Assembly: GCF_900186465.1 (NCBI RefSeq) | Contig: NZ_LT891957.1 | Coordinates: forward strand, 246,328 to 310,327 | DNA: 64,000 nucleotides | From: Centipeda felix | Lineage (GTDB): Bacteria; Bacillota; Negativicutes; Selenomonadales; Selenomonadaceae | Direction: 5' to 3' | In this document: in pieces, positions 45,107 to 61,356 of the stretch | How positions within the stretch are numbered: position 1 is the first letter of the stretch | Layout: each line of letters opens with the position of its first letter | Position numbers and translations under genes: made by a program | Notes under the pieces: model-generated | What the model was told of the DNA's origin: nothing | What the model saw: the letters and a program-made list of their open reading frames with translations, nothing else | Database searches by the model: none

Positions 45107-45135
45107 AATGTCACTCCCAAACTCCGTAAAAAGAA

Positions 45136-49199: not shown

Positions 49200-49236
49200 G
49201 GCTGCTGCACGAAGCGTAAAACTTCGTGCAGCAGCC
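49200..49236. repeat. Palindromic repeat, copy 2
   Basis: GGCTGCTGCACGAAG and its exact reverse complement CTTCGTGCAGCAGCC flank a CGTAAAA loop. It lies 10 bp after azlD and probably serves as a terminator. Confidence 0.85.
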
Positions 49237-49242
49237 TTATCT

Positions 49243-49272
49243 TTGTGCCCCTTCCCCGTCATACGGGGAAGG
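49243..49272. repeat. GC-rich repeat, class 2 (short copy)
   Basis: TTGTGCCCCTTCCCCGTC followed by ATACGGGGAAGG; the CCTTCCCCG/CGGGGAAGG hairpin is shared with 45181-45228. It lies next to palindrome copy 2, 10 bp before the RND gene stop. Confidence 0.65.
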
Positions 49273-52485: not shown

Positions 52486-53676
52486 TTACTGCGCGGGCGT
52501 CGGTGCGCTCGCATTAAAGTCAGAGGAATCTCCCTCAAGCGTGAACCCCATATCGTCCGGCGTCACCATCGTCACCGCGAGATCGCCGCCCTCCTGGAGC
52601 GTCGTGAGCCCTTCGACGACGACCGTGTCCGAGGCATCCAGACCGTCCTTCACGACGTAGTAGCTGCCGATCTTATCCCCGAGGGTGATCGTGCGGGCTT
52701 CTGCCTTGTTGTTTGCGCCGACGACCATCACAAAGGATTTGCCGAGAAGCTGCTGCACAGCACGCTCGGGAACGAGAAGTGCATTCGGAATCGTATCGCC
52801 GATCAGCGTTACGCGCGCGAACATCCCCGGCAGGAGAAGTCCGTCCGGATTGTCAAAGAGTGCCTTGACCGTCAGCGTGCCCGTCTGTGCCGTCAGTGCG
52901 CGGTCAGACGTAACGATATGGCCTGTGATCGGATACTTCGAGCCGTTCGAGAGAGTCAGCGTCACTACGACAGAGCCGATACCGCCCTGCTGTACCGCCT
53001 GCTCGACAAAATTCAGGTACTCGTTCTCTGAGAGACTAAACTTCGCATAGATGGGGTTCGACGTGCCCATGGAGACCAACGTTGTCGAACCTGCCGACAC
53101 AAAGGTGCCGACGGCAACATCATCGACGGAGAGCTGCCCCGACATCGGTGCGTAGATCGTCGTATCGTCGAGGTTCTCCTGCGCCTGCTGCACCATTGCC
53201 TGGTGCGCCGCAACTGCAGCCTCGTAGGCATTCACCTGCGCCTGCTGGTTGCTCACGGTCTGCTCTGAGATCGCCGCGTTCGCATAGAGCTGCTGGTAGC
53301 GGTCGAGATCCATGCGCGCGTTGGCGAGCGTCGCCTCCGACTGCGCGAGGTTCGCCTTTGCCTGCAGAAGTGCGCTCTCATACTGGCGCGCGTCGATGCG
53401 GTAGAGTGGCTGTCCCGCGCGTACAGGCTGGCCGCCGGTGATGTATTTCTCCACGATGTTGCCGGAGACGCGCGACTGGATCTTCACCTCGTCCGTGCCC
53501 ATGATCTGTCCGGCGTAGACGTGCGTCAGCGGTGCGTCCTGCCGCAGGACATTCATCGCCTTGACGGCAGTGGGACGTGCGCCCCCCTGCTTTTCTCCGC
53601 CACAGCCCGTGAGCACCACGCTGAGTGCCAGCGCAGCGGCGGCAAATACGCCAAGTCCTTTCCTTATCTCAAACAA
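52486..53676 (-). CDS. RND efflux periplasmic adaptor (membrane-fusion lipoprotein)
   Basis: 396 aa from TTG 53676 behind GAGGAGG. Lipoprotein signal with VVLTGC lipobox. Order: short beta barrel, lipoyl half (GTDEVKIQSRVSGNIVEKYITGGQPVRAGQPLYRID), coiled-coil hairpin (about 95-150, LAQSEATLANARMDLDRYQQLY), second lipoyl half (TTIYAPMSGQLSVDDVAVG), barrel and membrane-proximal domain. Partner of the downstream AcrB-type pump. Confidence 0.94.
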   Translation of the reverse strand: MFEIRKGLGVFAAAALALSVVLTGCGGEKQGGARPTAVKAMNVLRQDAPLTHVYAGQIMGTDEVKIQSRVSGNIVEKYITGGQPVRAGQPLYRIDARQYESALLQAKANLAQSEATLANARMDLDRYQQLYANAAISEQTVSNQQAQVNAYEAAVAAHQAMVQQAQENLDDTTIYAPMSGQLSVDDVAVGTFVSAGSTTLVSMGTSNPIYAKFSLSENEYLNFVEQAVQQGGIGSVVVTLTLSNGSKYPITGHIVTSDRALTAQTGTLTVKALFDNPDGLLLPGMFARVTLIGDTIPNALLVPERAVQQLLGKSFVMVVGANNKAEARTITLGDKIGSYYVVKDGLDASDTVVVEGLTTLQEGGDLAVTMVTPDDMGFTLEGDSSDFNASAPTPAQ

Positions 53677-53846
53677 GTGAATAACCTCCTCTTCTCATTT
53701 CCCGCAACAGGAGATAATTGTCAAAATACTCCCACAAGAGAAGGACAAGCATCCATATAGTCGGAATCCCTGCCATAGTGTGTTTATCTTATCGAAATGC
53801 ACGGCAAAAGTCAAGAAATGATGCACGGCTGAACCACAGTCAATAG
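53677..53846. other. Upstream region of the efflux operon
   Basis: 170 bp between the adaptor gene and the IS element. A TTGTCC...GGACAA-like inverted pair (about 53718-53738) is visible near TTGACAATTAT. No clear -10/-35 pair with good spacing was found, and no repressor gene (TetR/MarR) is adjacent. Confidence 0.4.
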
Positions 53847-53867
53847 AGTAGACACAAAAAAGAGCAA

Positions 53868-54731
53868 CTAAACAGATGAGAAGCGGTTGAAGAAATCGGC
53901 TTCAAATTCATTCGGGGTTTTATATGCAAGAGATCCATGAGGAAGCCGATTGTTATAAAGATTCTCGATATAGTCGAAGATGTCCAAACGTAACTCCTCG
54001 ACAGAGTGATAGGTACGTCGATTGGTACAATTTTTCTTTAAGAACTTAAAGAACGATTCACAACAGGCATTGTCAAAGGGACATCCTTTCTTGGAGAACG
54101 ACTGGACAATATTGTTTGCATCCAAAAGCTTACGGAAAGAAGAAGCGGTATACTCCGCCCCCTGATCGGAATGGAAGATCAGTCCGTAGGAAATATTTCT
54201 GCTCTGATATGCTTTATGGAAGGCTGCGATAATCAGGGCGGTATCGTGTTTGGAGGATAAACTCCAACCGATGATCTTTCGGGAAAACAAATCCATCACA
54301 ATACAAAGGAAATACCAAGTACGATTGACCCTAAGATAAGTAAAATCACTGACCCAAACAAGATTGGGGGCAGACTGATGAAACTGCCGACGCAGGAGAT
54401 CGTGGCATTCACCGGAGTCTTTCTGTGGGGTTCGTTTTGGCTTAACGGTGGAAGGCTTTGGAAGGGTCATGGAGCGCATCAGGCGGTACACTCTTCCGCT
54501 GCTGATGGAAATGCCATAGTCACGGGATAAGATATGCGTTATTTTATAAGCACCGATGCAGTTGTCGTAGTCGGCATAGATATGAAGAATGAGGCGACGA
54601 ATGTTCTGATTCTCCTTGATTCTTGGAGAAGGAGGCGCATTAAAGTGCTTATCGTAGGAACTGCGGTTGACGTGAAGGACCCTGCATAGGGTTTTGATGT
54701 CATGTTGGAGGCGCAGCTGATGGACGGCATT
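53868..54731 (-). pseudogene. IS3 transposase OrfB (integrase core), start lost
   Basis: DDE rve domain of about 287 residues following TGA at 54732-54734 (first residues NAVHQLRLQHDIKTL). Catalytic triad visible: VWVSDFTYLRV (D), LIFHSDQGAEYTA (D) and FDNACCESFFKFLKK (E). HTH_21-type helices lie in the N-terminal portion. There is no ATG or TTG before GTG 54491 in frame, and the frame cannot be reached by slippage from OrfA at the A7 run because of that TGA. The copy therefore looks decayed, though programmed shifting elsewhere is not excluded. Confidence 0.7.
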
Positions 54732-55018
54732 TCATCGTTGTTTGAGTGTGGCGTGAATATGGCAATCGCTTTTTTTAGGATAAGATTTTCCTCCTCGAGC
54801 TGGGCGTTACGTCTTTGCAAGTCTTTGATCTGTTTGGCAGTCATAATATCGCCATCGACGGTTTTGACCTCGGAATAAAGATGAATCCACTTTCCAATAG
54901 CAGAAAGGGAAACGCCATATTCCTTTGAGAGTTGTGATTGCGTTTTTCCATTTTGATAGAGGGCGACGATAGTTTTTTTGAAATCCTCGTCGTAGGGACG
55001 ATGTGTCATAGAAAACAT
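54539..55018 (-). CDS. IS3 transposase OrfA (HTH_28-like)
   Basis: The true part is about the first 95 residues: MTHRPYDEDFKKTIVALYQNGKTQSQLSKEYGVSLSAIGKWIH (helix-turn-helix), then a leucine-zipper segment LQRRNAQLEEENLILKKAIAIF. The following residues to 54539 (SISCASNMTS...) are out-of-family readthrough, because the expected stop is missing. An A7 run (54770-54776) codes the LKK segment where -1 slippage would normally occur. Confidence 0.75.
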   Translation of the reverse strand: MFSMTHRPYDEDFKKTIVALYQNGKTQSQLSKEYGVSLSAIGKWIHLYSEVKTVDGDIMTAKQIKDLQRRNAQLEEENLILKKAIAIFTPHSNNDEMPSISCASNMTSKPYAGSFTSTAVPTISTLMRLLLQESRRIRTFVASFFISMPTTTTASVLIK

Positions 55019-55092
55019 TCCTCCTTTGTGTTTACTGAAGTGTAATATAAAGTCCTGTTTTGTGTCTACTTTTTTAGTATAGATCCAATTGA

Positions 55093-55124
55093 GGCTGCTG
55101 CACGTTTATCTCGTGCAACAGCCC
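55093..55124. repeat. Palindromic repeat, copy 3
   Basis: GGCTGCTGCACG ... CTCGTGCAACAGCC with a TTTAT loop and flanking CCCTTTCTTTT. It lies between the IS right end and the aldolase gene, marking the left side of the AT-rich operon. It probably acts as its terminator. Confidence 0.75.
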
Positions 55125-55184
55125 CTTTCTTTTATACAAAAAACTCGCTGTATAATCTTACAGCGAGCTACAGTTCTATCTTTT

Positions 55185-56018
55185 CTATTCATTAATTTTT
55201 TGGACAAGGTTCTTAGTCACACGGGCAACTTCATCCACAGCTTGTAAGCTAATTGAGATAATCTGATTTTCTTTATGATTCTTTTCGTAAGCTTTTCCAT
55301 ACGTAGCAACAAAAACTCGACGAAGATCCGCACCATAGTTGATTTTAATAAGATTATATTTGCGTGCTTCATGAATAATGTCGAAAGAAATACCTGATCC
55401 GCCATGAAGTACAAGCGGTACGGGGCTTATTTCCGCAATCTTTTTCAAAAGAGGCAAATCGATATGAGGTACTGCGTCGATTCCATGGACATTTCCCACA
55501 GCAACCGCAAGGGTGTCACATCCTGTCCTCTCGACAAAATCTGCGACCATATTGGGATCCGTTTTCGCATCAGCTTCGCTGACCAAATCATCTTCCTTCC
55601 CGCCAATAGAACCTAGCTCAGCTTCCACGGGAAGATTATAGAAATGACAGTATTCCACAGCACGGCGTACTTCAGCAATATTTTCCTCAAAAGGCAAATG
55701 AGAAGCATCTATCATAATGGAGGTGAATCCGGCCTTAACACAAGCACATACATCTTCATAGGATTTCCCATGATCAAGATGTAGACCAATCGGTGTATCA
55801 TTATTTTCCTGTGCGCGGCGTGTTAAATATGCAATCGTATCAGGATCGGACAGGCGGAGATTATTGGATGAAATCTGAACATATCCCGGTAGTTTTGCTG
55901 CATTCAAGCCTTTGACAATGGCAAACGTCATCTCCATATTTGTCGTATTAAATGCAGGAAGAACAAGTTTTCTGCGCTGTGCATATGACATCAAGTCAAA
56001 GCCATTTATCAGTTTCAT
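55185..56018 (-). CDS. Class II ketose-bisphosphate aldolase (GatY/KbaY/FbaA type)
   Basis: Zn-dependent cleavage of a ketose 1,6-bisphosphate. 277 aa. Zinc and substrate ligands: LHLDHGKSYE, AELGSIGGKEDD, AVGNVHGI and LVLHGGSGIS. The length fits tagatose- or fructose-bisphosphate aldolases of sugar operons rather than long FbaA. Last gene of the PTS operon; start ATG 56018 overlaps the kinase stop by 4 bp. AT-rich codon use compared with window neighbours. Confidence 0.92.
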   Translation of the reverse strand: MKLINGFDLMSYAQRRKLVLPAFNTTNMEMTFAIVKGLNAAKLPGYVQISSNNLRLSDPDTIAYLTRRAQENNDTPIGLHLDHGKSYEDVCACVKAGFTSIMIDASHLPFEENIAEVRRAVEYCHFYNLPVEAELGSIGGKEDDLVSEADAKTDPNMVADFVERTGCDTLAVAVGNVHGIDAVPHIDLPLLKKIAEISPVPLVLHGGSGISFDIIHEARKYNLIKINYGADLRRVFVATYGKAYEKNHKENQIISISLQAVDEVARVTKNLVQKINE

Positions 56019-57499
56019 TTGAAGCCTCCTATACTATGTTCCATCATTATTTTTCTTTCATATAGTTCCACATAGGCTGTATACAGGCGATTGAGCTTCT
56101 CCGCATATTCTGCATTCGGATGTACGGCACGCACCGACATTGGCACGCGCTTGGCAAGCGATGGATATGCATAGACAAGAGCACCATAAGAGACCGCCTC
56201 ATCAACCTCTGTCACAAATATGGTTTGGTTCAATGCATCCGCTTTGAGTTGAAGCCAAAGATCATTTTTGGTTGCAGGACCAATAACTTTAATAGAGGAA
56301 ACGGCATTATCTTTCCCGATAAATGTATCATACAGATGCCGTAGCTCCATACAAACACCTTGTGCAACAGCATAAAAGAAATCTTTTATGCCCGTATTCG
56401 CTGTCAATCCATAAAGCATCCCGCGCGCATGAATATTTTTATCCGGACTCCCGCTGCCGACGAGGTGTGGAATAAAGAGAAGTTCTTGTGCACTCTGCAT
56501 CTTCCCTGCACGATAATCCTCCAACAGCTCCATATAAACTTGATCTGCCTCTTTTTGACTAAGCCGAAACATCTTACGAGCCCATTCATAAGAGAGGCCT
56601 GCTGCCGGAAGGGAGCCATATAGTGTAAATTTTTCAGGAAAAACGAACCGTCCTCCTGCAAGTTTAGCCGAACGCTCACACTCTCCCATCGGATATTCAG
56701 AGGAGATTCGCAAGAACCCTTCCGTTGTGCCTGTCGAATTAAGCAGCTCGCCTTCTTTTAGTCCAACGGCAAGAGAACCAACCATGTGGTCGTGTCCGAC
56801 CACTGAAACTCGCGTGTTTTCGTCAAGACCTAGTCTTCGAGCCATGGAAGGCTTAATCACGTGAGCAACGTCTCCTCCATATGCAAGAGGCGGAAAAATA
56901 CTCCGAGGCACACCATACAACATAATGAGCTCTTCAGACCACTCTCCACGACGCAGATCAAACGCCATTGTTCGACTCGCCATCGTGCTTACAGTCTGAC
57001 GAATACCCGTAAGTAAAAAAGAAATATAATCCGGCAAATTGAGCCAGGTCAGTCCTTCTTCCCATGCAATATGGCAATGTTGTTCCAACCATTTAATTTT
57101 AGCAATGCTGTAATTACTGTGCGGTGGCAATCCTGTAATCTCTTGAATTCTCTGCCAATCTGTGAAGGAAAGGCTATCGATATATTCTTTCCCTCGGCTA
57201 TCATTCCATGCAAGCATGGGGCCCATAATAGCCCCTGCTGCATCTACAATAACGCCCATCTCTCCGACACTGGCAATAAGAATATGCTCTATATGCCAGC
57301 AACCAGCCATTGCGAGATTTTTGATTTCATTCGTGATATTCTGAAATAACAGTGCACTGTCAAAATCAACTTCATCACGAATAATAATCTTCGGTGTACG
57401 AAAACTCCTTTTGCTGCAAAGTTCAGCTGTGGATGTATCGAACAGAAGAATCTTCGTATTCGTTGTTCCTACATCGATAACGACCGCTGCTGCCTGCAC
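56015..57499 (-). CDS. FGGY-family carbohydrate kinase
   Basis: 494 aa from GTG 57499 (VQAAAVVIDVGTTNTKILLFD); ATP-binding phosphate-1 motif IDVGTTNTKI at the N-terminus, then a FGGY-type second lobe (VVGHDHMVGSLAVG, LLNSTGTTEGFLR, ALVYAYPSLAKR). It belongs with xylulo-, ribulo- or gluconokinases; substrate not defined. Such a kinase beside a sugar PTS is unusual, because the PTS already phosphorylates its cargo. It follows the EIIC gene by 2 bp. Confidence 0.85.
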   Translation of the reverse strand: MQAAAVVIDVGTTNTKILLFDTSTAELCSKRSFRTPKIIIRDEVDFDSALLFQNITNEIKNLAMAGCWHIEHILIASVGEMGVIVDAAGAIMGPMLAWNDSRGKEYIDSLSFTDWQRIQEITGLPPHSNYSIAKIKWLEQHCHIAWEEGLTWLNLPDYISFLLTGIRQTVSTMASRTMAFDLRRGEWSEELIMLYGVPRSIFPPLAYGGDVAHVIKPSMARRLGLDENTRVSVVGHDHMVGSLAVGLKEGELLNSTGTTEGFLRISSEYPMGECERSAKLAGGRFVFPEKFTLYGSLPAAGLSYEWARKMFRLSQKEADQVYMELLEDYRAGKMQSAQELLFIPHLVGSGSPDKNIHARGMLYGLTANTGIKDFFYAVAQGVCMELRHLYDTFIGKDNAVSSIKVIGPATKNDLWLQLKADALNQTIFVTEVDEAVSYGALVYAYPSLAKRVPMSVRAVHPNAEYAEKLNRLYTAYVELYERKIMMEHSIGGFK

Positions 57500-57501
57500 A
57501 A

Positions 57502-58872
57502 TCAGTCGCTCCCCTCCGCATATACAACATTCTTCGTCATACGATACACACCGTAGACAACAACTGCAATAACCGGAATGAAGGCTAGCGCCATCACATC
57601 TCCATCAAAAATCTTCAGCACCCAGAAGCGGAATGGATTCCCACCGTCGAGGAAACTCGATACCATTCCTGTCGATCCGGCAGGCATCTGGAAATTGACA
57701 TCTGCAGCCATCTGCGTAACAAATCCGGCAATATTGGTTGCCACAAACAAATCTGCTATGATACAGGGAATTGCAATGATTACTGCCCGGAAAACATTTC
57801 CTTTTGTCGCAAGCACAATCATAGAGGCGAATACTGCGAGGTTTGCAAGATCACCAAGGGGCAAAACGCCATTGCCAGGCAGCACAAAAGCAAGGATAAC
57901 GGCAATCGGCGTAAGAAGAAGTGCCGTGGAAATAATCGCCGGATTTCCGATCGCAACAGCAATATCAAGACCAATGTAAAGATCTTCACGCCCCGGATAA
58001 CGTTTTTTAAGGAAGCCCTTAATGGCGTCAGACAGCGGCAACAATCCTTCCATAAGGATACGTACCATGCGAGGCAGTATAAACATAACCGCACCAATAT
58101 TAATCCCAAGAGAAAGGATACCTTTCAGATCATACTGCGCAATGACACCGACAAGAACGCCTAGAATAATCCCAATCATCATGGGTTCACCCAAAAGCCC
58201 AAAGCGTTTCTGAATGGTAGCCGGATCGATAGAGATTTTATTAATGACAGGGATTTTCTCAATGATAAGATTACCCAACAAACCAATGGGAAAAAACACC
58301 GCGGAAGAAAGTGTCGGAAGAGAAATTCCCTCAAGGTCAAAATAACGCTGCAACATCGGGGCACTCCAATCCGCAAGCTTTAGAATGACCACTGCAATAA
58401 TTCCCGCAGCAAGTAGTCCCAGCCAAAAGCTCCCCGTGCTGTAATAGACGAGTGTCCCACCAAGAGCAAAATGCCAATAATTCCACATATCAACATCTAC
58501 CGTTTTGGTAAGACGCAATGCCAACATCACAATGTTAATGAGAATCGTCAGGGGGATAACAAATGCTGCAATGGGTCCTCCCCATGTAATCGCAGCAAGT
58601 GGCGGCCACCCTAGATCGGTCACAGGCAAATTAACACCACTATTGATAACCATTGCTTGAGCAGCAGGACCTATACTGGACGTCAAAATTCCAAAGATAG
58701 CATAAATACCGACAAATCCAATACCTACAGTCAATGCTGAACGCACCGCCTTAGCGAGAGGAACTTGGAAAACAAGTGCGAAAAAGAACAATACAACCGG
58801 CAGCATCACCGTCGGACCCATGCCCAAAATAAATTGGACAACTTCCAAGAGTGTGTTTCCAAATGCTTCCAT
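57502..58872 (-). CDS. PTS galactitol-family EIIC permease
   Basis: 456 aa integral membrane carrier. MEAFGNTLLEVVQFILGMGPTVMLPVVLFF and the segment DVDMWNYWHFALGGTLVYYSTGSFWLGL resemble GatC; about ten hydrophobic stretches. It transports and phosphorylates a polyol or hexose with the EIIB and EIIA encoded next to it. Substrate may not be galactitol. Separated from EIIB by 68 bp. Confidence 0.9.
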   Translation of the reverse strand: MEAFGNTLLEVVQFILGMGPTVMLPVVLFFFALVFQVPLAKAVRSALTVGIGFVGIYAIFGILTSSIGPAAQAMVINSGVNLPVTDLGWPPLAAITWGGPIAAFVIPLTILINIVMLALRLTKTVDVDMWNYWHFALGGTLVYYSTGSFWLGLLAAGIIAVVILKLADWSAPMLQRYFDLEGISLPTLSSAVFFPIGLLGNLIIEKIPVINKISIDPATIQKRFGLLGEPMMIGIILGVLVGVIAQYDLKGILSLGINIGAVMFILPRMVRILMEGLLPLSDAIKGFLKKRYPGREDLYIGLDIAVAIGNPAIISTALLLTPIAVILAFVLPGNGVLPLGDLANLAVFASMIVLATKGNVFRAVIIAIPCIIADLFVATNIAGFVTQMAADVNFQMPAGSTGMVSSFLDGGNPFRFWVLKIFDGDVMALAFIPVIAVVVYGVYRMTKNVVYAEGSD

Positions 58873-58940
58873 GATTCCTACCTCCTTGCCAAAATAAATA
58901 TACTTTCAACATCTTAGCATTTTCACTCTTACGCTATGCT

Positions 58941-59222
58941 TCAATCTTTTAAGATTTCACGTATTTTCTCATAGACTTTCTCTTCCCCAATGCCTGTGAT
59001 AAGAGGCAGACCTTTAACAACAGGTATTGTTGTTTCGTAGGGGATATTCGTCGTTGAAACGATCAGATCTGCACTTCCGTCATACCCCGGAACACTTGCA
59101 ACATTGATCTGTTGGTGCGTCATCTCAATGCCTTGTTCTTTGCAGTAAGCAATGACCTTTTCTGCAACCTCTGTAGATGTCGCTATACCTGTAGCACAAA
59201 CAAAGAGTACATGCTTCGTCAT
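58941..59222 (-). CDS. PTS galactitol-family EIIB
   Basis: 93 aa phosphocarrier. MTKHVLFVCATGIATSTEVAEKV holds the phosphorylatable Cys9 within CATG(I/x)ATS, typical of GatB. It ends 2 bp from EIIA's coding region, so the two are co-translated. Confidence 0.92.
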   Translation of the reverse strand: MTKHVLFVCATGIATSTEVAEKVIAYCKEQGIEMTHQQINVASVPGYDGSADLIVSTTNIPYETTIPVVKGLPLITGIGEEKVYEKIREILKD

Positions 59223-59223
59223 A

Positions 59224-59688
59224 TCAGATTTCTCCTTTCAACTTGCTATCTAATATTTTATAAATTTCAGTCGAATCACAAGATAACAATTTCTCCAATT
59301 GCTTTGCATCACGAATCAGTTCCGTAATGCTTTTTAGGATGTTTAACTGTTTCTGCGATTCATTTAACGCCAGAAGAAATACAACTCGAACATCTGTGGT
59401 TTCATCATCTGTCCCCATGACAGTGAATGTAACAGGATGTCTCAATACGCCAACACTGATTGCATTCTGCTTGACATATTCGGGATCCGTATGTGGAATG
59501 GCTACCCCAAAGGGCTCTGTTGGTAGCCCTGTCGGAAAATTTTGTTCCCGCCTCCTTACCCCCTCTAAAAAGCCCTCATTAACAAGATTAAGATCATAGA
59601 GAGGCTTTGCTAACTGTTCAAAGATTTCATTCTGCGTCGATGCAATAACATCTGTTTGAATAAGATCTTCGTTTATAATAATCTTCAC
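59224..59688 (-). CDS. PTS EIIA (fructose/mannitol-type domain)
   Basis: 154 aa. Phosphorylatable His66 in FGVAIPHTDPEYV. It is a PTS_EIIA_2 domain of the kind found as GatA. The order EIIA-EIIB-EIIC behind the regulator gene is typical. AT-rich. Confidence 0.92.
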   Translation of the reverse strand: MKIIINEDLIQTDVIASTQNEIFEQLAKPLYDLNLVNEGFLEGVRRREQNFPTGLPTEPFGVAIPHTDPEYVKQNAISVGVLRHPVTFTVMGTDDETTDVRVVFLLALNESQKQLNILKSITELIRDAKQLEKLLSCDSTEIYKILDSKLKGEI

Positions 59689-59709
59689 AAAAGCCCTCCT
59701 TTAGAATAT

Positions 59710-60447
59710 CTATCTTTGATAGACTGTACCTAGGTAATATCGATTCGATTTCAGCCATACGTTGCCGAACTCGACCACTTTGCTCGAATCCAGATGGACT
59801 AACTGAACTAGATGCAATACAGGTGCATCATCTGAAACCTGTAAGAAGGCTGCACGCTCTCTGCCGACTACACGAGCCGCATATTGACTCTCCGAGAACT
59901 TAATCTTTGTTCCCGCAATTCGTTCAATTGCAGTAAAAAGAGATTCCTTGGTAAAGTCAACATGTTCAACACCCCGACACAAGGAAATATTTACTCGATT
60001 TTCAATCAGCATGACAGGCTCACCATCAACGCTTCTGACACGCTTCAAATAAAAGACATCATCTCCCGGGGAAATATTCAATCGATCCGCTGTGTAAGGA
60101 TTTGCCGGCTCAATACGAGCCTCTATTACCATTGTCTCAAACTGAATATTTCGCTCAGCAAGAGCCTCAGCAAAAGAGAGAAGCCCTTTACTCAGTGGAT
60201 AGGAAATCTTATTATCTGTAACAAAAGTCCCTTTCCCTTGTACCTGTGACAGCAACCCCTCATCACAAAGAATTGCGATTGCCTTTTTTACAGTTCCACG
60301 ACTAACCTTTAGAGAATTCACTATACTGTTTTCAGAATCTATCTGCTGCCCATACCCCCATGTTCCGTTATAAATATTATTGCGTATCCAATCAGCAACC
60401 TGTTCGTACAACGGCGTCATACCATTCTTTTGAAGATTGTTTGTCAT
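59710..60447 (-). CDS. GntR/HutC-family transcriptional regulator
   Basis: 245 aa from ATG 60447 (MTNNLQKNGMTPLYEQVADWI) behind AAAGGATG; the frame extends seven codons further. N-terminal winged helix (about 10-80, DSENSIVNSLKVSRGTVKKAIAIL), then a UTRA ligand domain (about 95-240). First gene of the operon; an operator-like nested palindrome overlaps its promoter. It probably represses the PTS operon until a sugar phosphate binds. Confidence 0.92.
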   Translation of the reverse strand: MTNNLQKNGMTPLYEQVADWIRNNIYNGTWGYGQQIDSENSIVNSLKVSRGTVKKAIAILCDEGLLSQVQGKGTFVTDNKISYPLSKGLLSFAEALAERNIQFETMVIEARIEPANPYTADRLNISPGDDVFYLKRVRSVDGEPVMLIENRVNISLCRGVEHVDFTKESLFTAIERIAGTKIKFSESQYAARVVGRERAAFLQVSDDAPVLHLVQLVHLDSSKVVEFGNVWLKSNRYYLGTVYQR

Positions 60448-60478
60448 GATAAACATCCTTTGTCTCATAGAAATATAT

Positions 60479-60516
60479 AGATGTACTTACTTGTCTATAT
60501 ACAACTATGTACATCT
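60479..60516. promoter_or_regulatory. Nested palindromic operator for the GntR regulator
   Basis: Outer arms AGATGTAC (60479-60486) and GTACATCT (60509-60516) and inner box TTGTCTATATACAA (60491-60504, near-perfect TTGTxTATAxACAA) share the same centre at 60497.5. They lie just past the -10 of the promoter. HutC-type GntR proteins bind similar sites. Confidence 0.75.
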
Positions 60517-60519
60517 TGT

Positions 60520-60547
60520 ATTTTACAGCATTCTCCAATAAAGTCAA
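60520..60547 (-). promoter_or_regulatory. Promoter of the gntR-PTS operon
   Basis: Minus strand: -35 TTGACT (60542-60547), 16-bp spacer, -10 TAAAAT (60520-60525). The operator overlaps the start site, so bound repressor should block initiation. Confidence 0.75.
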
Positions 60548-60596
60548 TAGCGATTGAGAAAAATATATAGTTTTTATGAAATGATAAAAGAAGCGA

Positions 60597-60634
60597 GGCT
60601 GTTGCACGAAGTTTTCTAGCTTCGTGCAACAGCC
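60597..60634. repeat. Palindromic repeat, copy 4
   Basis: GGCTGTTGCACGAAG and its exact reverse complement CTTCGTGCAACAGCC with a loop of about 8 bases. It lies 5 bp beyond the rnc stop and 50 bp from the GntR promoter, on the right side of the AT-rich operon. It is likely the rnc terminator on the minus strand. Confidence 0.85.
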
Positions 60635-60639
60635 CCAAC

Positions 60640-61356
60640 TCACTCCTTCTTTATACATCTGAGTGCGGCTTCTGCCGCATGCTGCTCCGCCTCTTTTTTG
60701 CTGCGTCCTATTCCTTCGCCCAGGACCTCCATCCCAATGCGAACGCGCATGGTAAACCGCTTATCATGGTCGGGACCACTCTCAGCGACCTGCTCGTAGG
60801 CAATACATTCATGCCTGTGACCTTGTACGTATTCCTGCAGCATCGTCTTGTAATCCTGTGCGACGTGTTCCTGCCGCAGATGCGGCAGCTCGTCGGCAAA
60901 CTGACGCTGCACATAGGCGCGTGCCGCATCCCAGCCACGGTCAAGGTAGACCGCGCCGATCACCGCCTCAAAGACGTTCTCAAGGTTGTTCTGCCGCTCT
61001 GCTCCGCCGCCGAGCATCTCGCCGCGCCCCATGCGCAGATGTGCTCCGAGATGCAGCCGGCGCGCCAGCCGTGCGAGCGTCTCGCTCTGCACGAGACTCG
61101 CGCGCATCTTCGTCAGCTCCCCCTCCGCACAGTGCGGATAGGCGTCGTAGAGATACGTACTGATCGCGAGCTCGAGAACGGCATCGCCCAGAAACTCCAG
61201 CCGCTCGTTATGTGCTGCGTGTCCCCGTGCCTCGTTGGCATAGGAGGGATGGGTCAGCGCCTCGTCGAGGGTGGAGAGATTGGCAAAATCTATGCCGAGG
61301 GACGCAGAAAGGCGCACGAGTTCCGCGCGCCTTTTTTCCGTTATCGGATATGTCAT
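60640..61356 (-). CDS. rnc: Ribonuclease III
   Basis: Double-stranded-RNA endonuclease for rRNA and mRNA processing. 238 aa. The endonuclease domain has NERLEFLGDAVLELAIS (signature with catalytic acids) and ENVFEAVIGAVYLDRG; a C-terminal dsRBD covers about 165-235 (DYKTMLQEYVQGHRH, GIGRSKKEAEQHAAEAALR). ATG 61356 overlaps the fabF stop by 4 bp, the usual acpP-fabF-rnc order. Confidence 0.96.
   Translation of the reverse strand: MTYPITEKRRAELVRLSASLGIDFANLSTLDEALTHPSYANEARGHAAHNERLEFLGDAVLELAISTYLYDAYPHCAEGELTKMRASLVQSETLARLARRLHLGAHLRMGRGEMLGGGAERQNNLENVFEAVIGAVYLDRGWDAARAYVQRQFADELPHLRQEHVAQDYKTMLQEYVQGHRHECIAYEQVAESGPDHDKRFTMRVRIGMEVLGEGIGRSKKEAEQHAAEAALRCIKKE

Follow-up and report, generated by a model that had tools for sequence, protein, structure and literature searches.

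Probable recent horizontal acquisition of an AT-rich PTS operon at the 3' end of rnc in Centipeda felix

The PTS operon and its surroundings

The window analysed here is a 64,000-nucleotide stretch of the Centipeda felix genome (contig NZ_LT891957.1, positions 246,328 to 310,327), and all coordinates below refer to it unless stated otherwise. Six minus-strand genes at 55185-60468 form an AT-rich PTS operon. Read along the minus strand, they encode a GntR/UTRA regulator (59710-60468; PF00392, PF07702), PTS EIIA (59224-59688; PF00359), PTS EIIB (58941-59222; PF02302), PTS EIIC of the galactitol (Gat) type (57502-58872; PF03611), an FGGY carbohydrate kinase (56015-57499; PF00370, PF02782) and a class II aldolase of the PRK07998 type (55185-56018; NF005943, above the cut-off). 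An inverted repeat, GATGTAC...GTACATC (60480-60515), lies between the GntR gene and a promoter-like site (60547-60520), just behind the latter, and is a putative operator. At the other end, a minus-strand stem followed by a T run (hairpin C, 55142-55169) resembles a terminator and would be the operon's own.

The six genes differ in composition from their surroundings, as the original prediction held. Their GC3 ranges from 0.34 to 0.43, against a mean of 0.69 (minimum 0.54) for 42 background ORFs of the window, which are mechanically called ORFs of at least 150 amino acids rather than curated genes; codon use deviates from the background as well.

The native left neighbour of the operon is the gene for an RND periplasmic adaptor (52486-53676, minus strand; TIGR01730), which is present in all 14 genomes of the genus. 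Between the two lies an IS3-family element (53847-55070, minus strand) with the ends AGTAGACACAAA and the genes orfA (54539-55018) and orfB (53868-54491). Similarity to the sister species ends at about 53830, so that 16 bp (53831-53846) separate the native upstream region from the element. The genome has no second copy of it, and no target duplication was seen around it. A DNA search in 13 relatives returned matches to palindrome B, a hairpin described below, and none over the body of the element.

Enterobacterales, Enterococcus and Pectinatus have the same gene set, and their EIIC is about 70-73% identical to that of the operon; at the Pectinatus locus the search matched no GntR gene, and gene order differs in Enterococcus and Pectinatus, where the aldolase gene precedes that of EIIA. 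The PTS-Gat operon found between nikR and yhhJ in Escherichia coli (NZ_CP018957.1, 1018888-1024487) has the same order of GntR, EIIA, EIIB, EIIC, FGGY kinase and class II aldolase genes, and its EIIC gene is 68% identical in DNA to that of the window. It differs in an additional HPr-family gene and in its locus. An EIIC match was present in 1617 of 5426 complete E. coli genomes, and the searches made did not find the substrate of this E. coli operon. A plasmid origin of the C. felix operon was rejected: no plasmid record covers it, the best matches (68% identity over 30% of the query) being to two E. coli records of chromosome size. A viral carrier was likewise rejected, as viral contigs scanned for EIIC, rnc and the junction pattern described below yielded no relative.

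Palindromes at and beyond the operon borders

The operon had been described as bracketed by a GGCTGTTGCACGAAG palindrome that occurs on either side, at 55093-55124 and at 60597-60634. Both palindromes exist and far exceed chance expectation, but the exact 15-mer is found on both arms only at 60597-60634; the 55093 palindrome is of another subtype, with a loop of its own and two mismatches to the 15-mer in its arm. The further claim that the pair flanks exactly the genes of deviant composition does not hold, because low GC begins at about 53.8 kb, with the AT-rich IS3 element, and the DNA shared with Centipeda periodontii ends at 60679, inside rnc. Nor are the palindromes restricted to the operon borders, with a further copy at 49200-49236 and a degenerate one at 45135. 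Using the pattern GCTGYTGCA-N(4-30)-TGCARCAGC, we counted three palindromes in the window, against a mean of 0 in shuffled sequence, and 13 complete palindromes in the 2.4-Mb genome, against 0 for a reversed control. The family is present in all 14 genomes of the genus, with 2 to 31 copies per genome. At 45135 and 49200-49272, its members adjoin a second repeat type, CCCCTTCC...GGGGAAGG, which recurs beside other palindrome copies, so that composite repeats exist.

The right-hand palindrome (palindrome A, 60594-60637) sits 3' of the rnc stop codon and has the anatomy of an intrinsic terminator, a stable GC-rich hairpin followed by a T run. On the minus strand, which is that of rnc, the hairpin 60637-60594 has a predicted folding energy of -39 kcal/mol (71-base stretch; z -8.2) and is followed by CTTCTTTTAT. 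The left-hand palindrome (palindrome B, 55093-55123) is a terminator-like hairpin with a T-rich tail on the plus strand and has no plus-strand gene ahead of it. Of 31 distinct palindrome copies, 26 have at least six T within 14 bases on one side; the 31 hairpins derive from 33 loci, less one locus (L144) that was shorter than expected and yielded no hairpin, and one duplicate. The copies are mostly intergenic, and the ORFs that read across the hairpin in 11 of the 33 loci are in some cases probably spurious. A search of the window against Rfam returned one tRNA only.

In being short, repeated, GC-rich and mostly intergenic hairpins with T-rich tails, these palindromes resemble REP-like interspersed repeats. 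They differ in that the family lacks a link to a REP-associated transposase and that loop and arms vary among genomes. The Y1/REP-type transposase (PF01797) was not found in C. periodontii (26 palindromes), genome G011 (31) or the sister species (6), and an assignment to REP/RAYT repeats was rejected on the absence of co-occurrence in the first two. The sequence features instead suggest that the family consists of repeated sites resembling intrinsic terminators, spread genus-wide, and that palindromes A and B are probably ordinary transcription stop signals rather than moving machinery.

Site occupancy and a crossover within rnc

Among the 14 genomes, an EIIC orthologue (99% identity) is confined to the window genome (G000) and C. 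periodontii DSM 2778 (G007); the remaining 12 have no EIIC or paralogues of at most 49% identity. Conservation of the operon at this locus in all relatives, which would have spoken against an insertion, is thus not seen. The insertion between the efflux operon and rnc that had been proposed is borne out: in 11 of 13 relatives rnc directly neighbours the RND adaptor gene, with 178-359 bp between aligned ends, so that the site is empty there, while it is occupied in one relative (C. periodontii) and rearranged in another (G012, in which the two genes lie 440 kb apart). The sister species (G003) has an empty site and a left flank 94-95% identical to that of C. felix. In C. periodontii, the operon lies between rnc and the adaptor gene in the same position and orientation as in C. 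felix. Across the whole family, DNA of the segment was matched at an E value of 1e-20 in five of 189 genomes, with most of the segment present only in C. felix and C. periodontii. No palindrome is present at any of the 11 empty sites, contrary to the expectation of a relative with an empty site marked by a single copy.

The segment common to C. felix and C. periodontii spans 55136-60679 and is 98.25% identical over 5548 aligned columns. Outside it, the two genomes are only 75-85% identical: the left flank on the RND side reaches 82.8%, rnc about 75% and fabF-fabK 85.3%. Identity between the two carriers is therefore higher inside the segment than in its flanks, as expected of an insertion.

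The right limit of the segment lies 46 bases past palindrome A, within rnc. Compared with C. periodontii, C. felix has five differences in the 200 bp before 60680 and five in the next 41, and departs from it from 60697 on. Compared with the sister species, 17 of 40 positions differ before 60680 and none of 158 after it (60680-60837). As the likeness switches from C. periodontii to the sister species at 60680, the crossover falls in rnc, within the 17 bp (60680-60696) that are identical in all three genomes. The rnc gene of C. felix is thus chimaeric: its 3' end (60640-60679, minus strand), which ends in HAAEAALRCIKKE, agrees with C. periodontii in 39 of 40 bases, whereas the rest (60680-61356, minus strand) is native. 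With the crossover in rnc, the last rnc codons, the terminator hairpin and the operon arrived together, and palindrome A came along as the predicted terminator of the imported rnc tail. Counts of the 60597-type hairpin (at most one mismatch), which is common in some relatives, agree with its import: there is one in C. felix, none in the sister species and 12 in C. periodontii; G005 has 10 and G010 has 11.

Farther into rnc, at 60838-61356, C. felix is only about 87% identical to its sister species, against 94-95% in the neighbouring RND genes, and the fully identical patch of 158 bp borders the crossover. This pattern of identity suggests further recombination within rnc.

In C. periodontii, the far end of the segment borders directly on a displaced rnc 3' end, which is in frame to its stop codon (GRSKKEAEKHAA...IKGG*) and is followed by the native spacer and then the adaptor gene. 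This displaced end forms a 45-bp direct repeat of the present rnc, identical at 42 of 45 positions, and no clear microhomology is apparent by eye at the join. The fragment is absent from the left end of the C. felix segment; palindrome B and the IS3 element stand in its place. Similarity to C. periodontii ceases about 13 bp from palindrome B, and the IS3 element obscures this end of the C. felix segment.

The rearranged genome G012 has a degenerate rnc-like fragment and hairpin C ahead of its adaptor gene. The outer end TTGAAGAG-N6-GGACGCAGCAA is common to C. periodontii and G012, both of which have a hairpin like hairpin C at the junction, and among 191 loci this pattern with its six-base spacer is found only in these two. 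The two genomes are not sisters in the adaptor-gene tree, in which support is weak. In G012, an apparent CRISPR-Cas locus with its array, which we take to be of type I-C from gene sizes and sequence starts, lies beside the adaptor gene, near the rnc-like fragment (L189:8294-18400, L091:2951-3009). Its rnc is on the other strand relative to the adaptor gene, and a phage portal protein fragment (phrog_12; L188:1931-2269) lies about 17 kb downstream of rnc.

Mode of joining and meaning for the genus

We consider it likely that the AT-rich PTS operon was acquired recently by horizontal transfer and entered the chromosome where rnc ends, swapping the 3' end of that gene; transfer and site are well supported. 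The incoming DNA would have carried an rnc 3' end, the terminator hairpin and the operon, in that order, and would have recombined with the resident rnc in the conserved stretch that codes for the end of the double-stranded-RNA-binding domain, leaving rnc intact with its 3' end exchanged. Joining of the other end would have taken place outside long homology, through homology-facilitated illegitimate recombination or else a single crossover with a circular molecule. In C. periodontii, this joining would have left the old rnc 3' end beyond the operon, and in the window genome the IS3 element and an orphan hairpin would stand in place of the old end. For RecA-type recombination, 17 identical base pairs make a short run; the actual donor may have matched the recipient in rnc over more than these 17 bp, and C. 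periodontii may be a second recipient rather than the donor.

The homologous anchor in rnc, with its breakpoint at 60680-60696, combined with a non-homologous far join, fits homology-facilitated illegitimate recombination. That model was put forward for type VI secretion effector modules of Vibrio cholerae, with a displaced 3' region proposed in the passages of that report that deal with the model (PMC5361080). As described there, the modules share with the present case a conserved anchor, new genes beside it and an old 3' end pushed behind the insert; here, by contrast, a sugar operon is anchored in the housekeeping gene rnc, and all that persists of the old end is a fragment of rnc in one of the two carriers. 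Recombination of a circular molecule through one crossover would also account for the short repeat of the rnc end. In E. coli conjugation experiments, single crossovers produced a partial duplication of the homologous gene end of 109-950 bp, according to the relevant passages of PMC3240628. The cargo there, too, has a short repeat of the target gene's end at its border (about 45 bp here), but in our case the repeat is shorter and no vector or circle was seen. A random illegitimate join is countered by the sharing, between the non-sister genomes of C. periodontii and G012, of hairpin C and the bases beside the displaced rnc end, and this common outer end leaves room for a site-specific element.

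Such an element, integrating at the rnc 3' end, with the operon as its remnant or cargo and the integrase lost or acting in trans, is unlikely, although several features are in its favour. A gene 3' end restored by import, with a displaced copy at the far end, is the pattern of tRNA-type attachment sites, and C. periodontii and G012 share the outer end described above. However, profile searches identified none of the insert's six genes as an integrase, and C. periodontii has the same six; three scans of viral contigs found no relative; and the repeat in G012 is degenerate. Direct repeats of the gene end stand at both borders in C. periodontii; in C. felix the left copy is missing. Far less probable is repeat-mediated insertion, which the original prediction held plausible, with the palindromes themselves acting by recombination between copies or through a transposase that targets them. 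The family is repetitive, a palindrome lies near each end of the operon, and palindrome B is close to the point where similarity to C. periodontii stops; yet the empty sites hold no palindrome, C. periodontii has only the one on the rnc side and lacks palindrome B at its junction, the right breakpoint lies beyond palindrome A within the rnc coding sequence, and PF01797 was not found in C. periodontii, G011 or the sister species, all of which carry palindromes.

Mobilisation by the IS3 element, as a composite transposon or by one-ended transposition, is suggested by its position directly left of the insert in C. felix, but is highly improbable: a composite transposon would have an IS on both sides and a target duplication, whereas the element here is on one side only, lacks a duplication, is unmatched in the relatives and is absent from the C. 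periodontii junction. That the operon is ancestral at this locus and was lost from most relatives can be practically dismissed; C. felix and C. periodontii do agree in its position and orientation, but the excess of identity inside the segment, the sharp breakpoint, the chimaeric rnc and the empty site in the sister species all argue against it. Acquisition by transfer with replacement of the rnc end thus accounts best for the locus.

It is conceivable, though doubtful, that the rnc 3' end is a recurrent insertion point in the genus for modules whose outer end is fixed (hairpin C and TTGAAGAG beside the rnc core) and which bring a spare rnc tail and exchangeable cargo, namely the PTS operon in C. 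felix and C. periodontii and, apparently, CRISPR-Cas in G012. A literature search on Selenomonas and C. periodontii, the Gat-type operon and integration at rnc, which covered titles and the openings of abstracts, found no paper on this locus.

Well resolved as it is, the event is of an ordinary kind, in which a catabolic operon moves horizontally and a gene end is exchanged along with it. For this recent transfer between oral bacteria, one of the operon's breakpoints is narrowed to 17 bases, and the incoming DNA would have both split a housekeeping gene and repaired it. The case shows that eye-catching palindromes at the edges of foreign DNA can be passengers, here predicted terminators, rather than the cause of its insertion. 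If the rnc end is a common insertion point, it would be a place to seek variable cargo in Centipeda and Selenomonas genomes.
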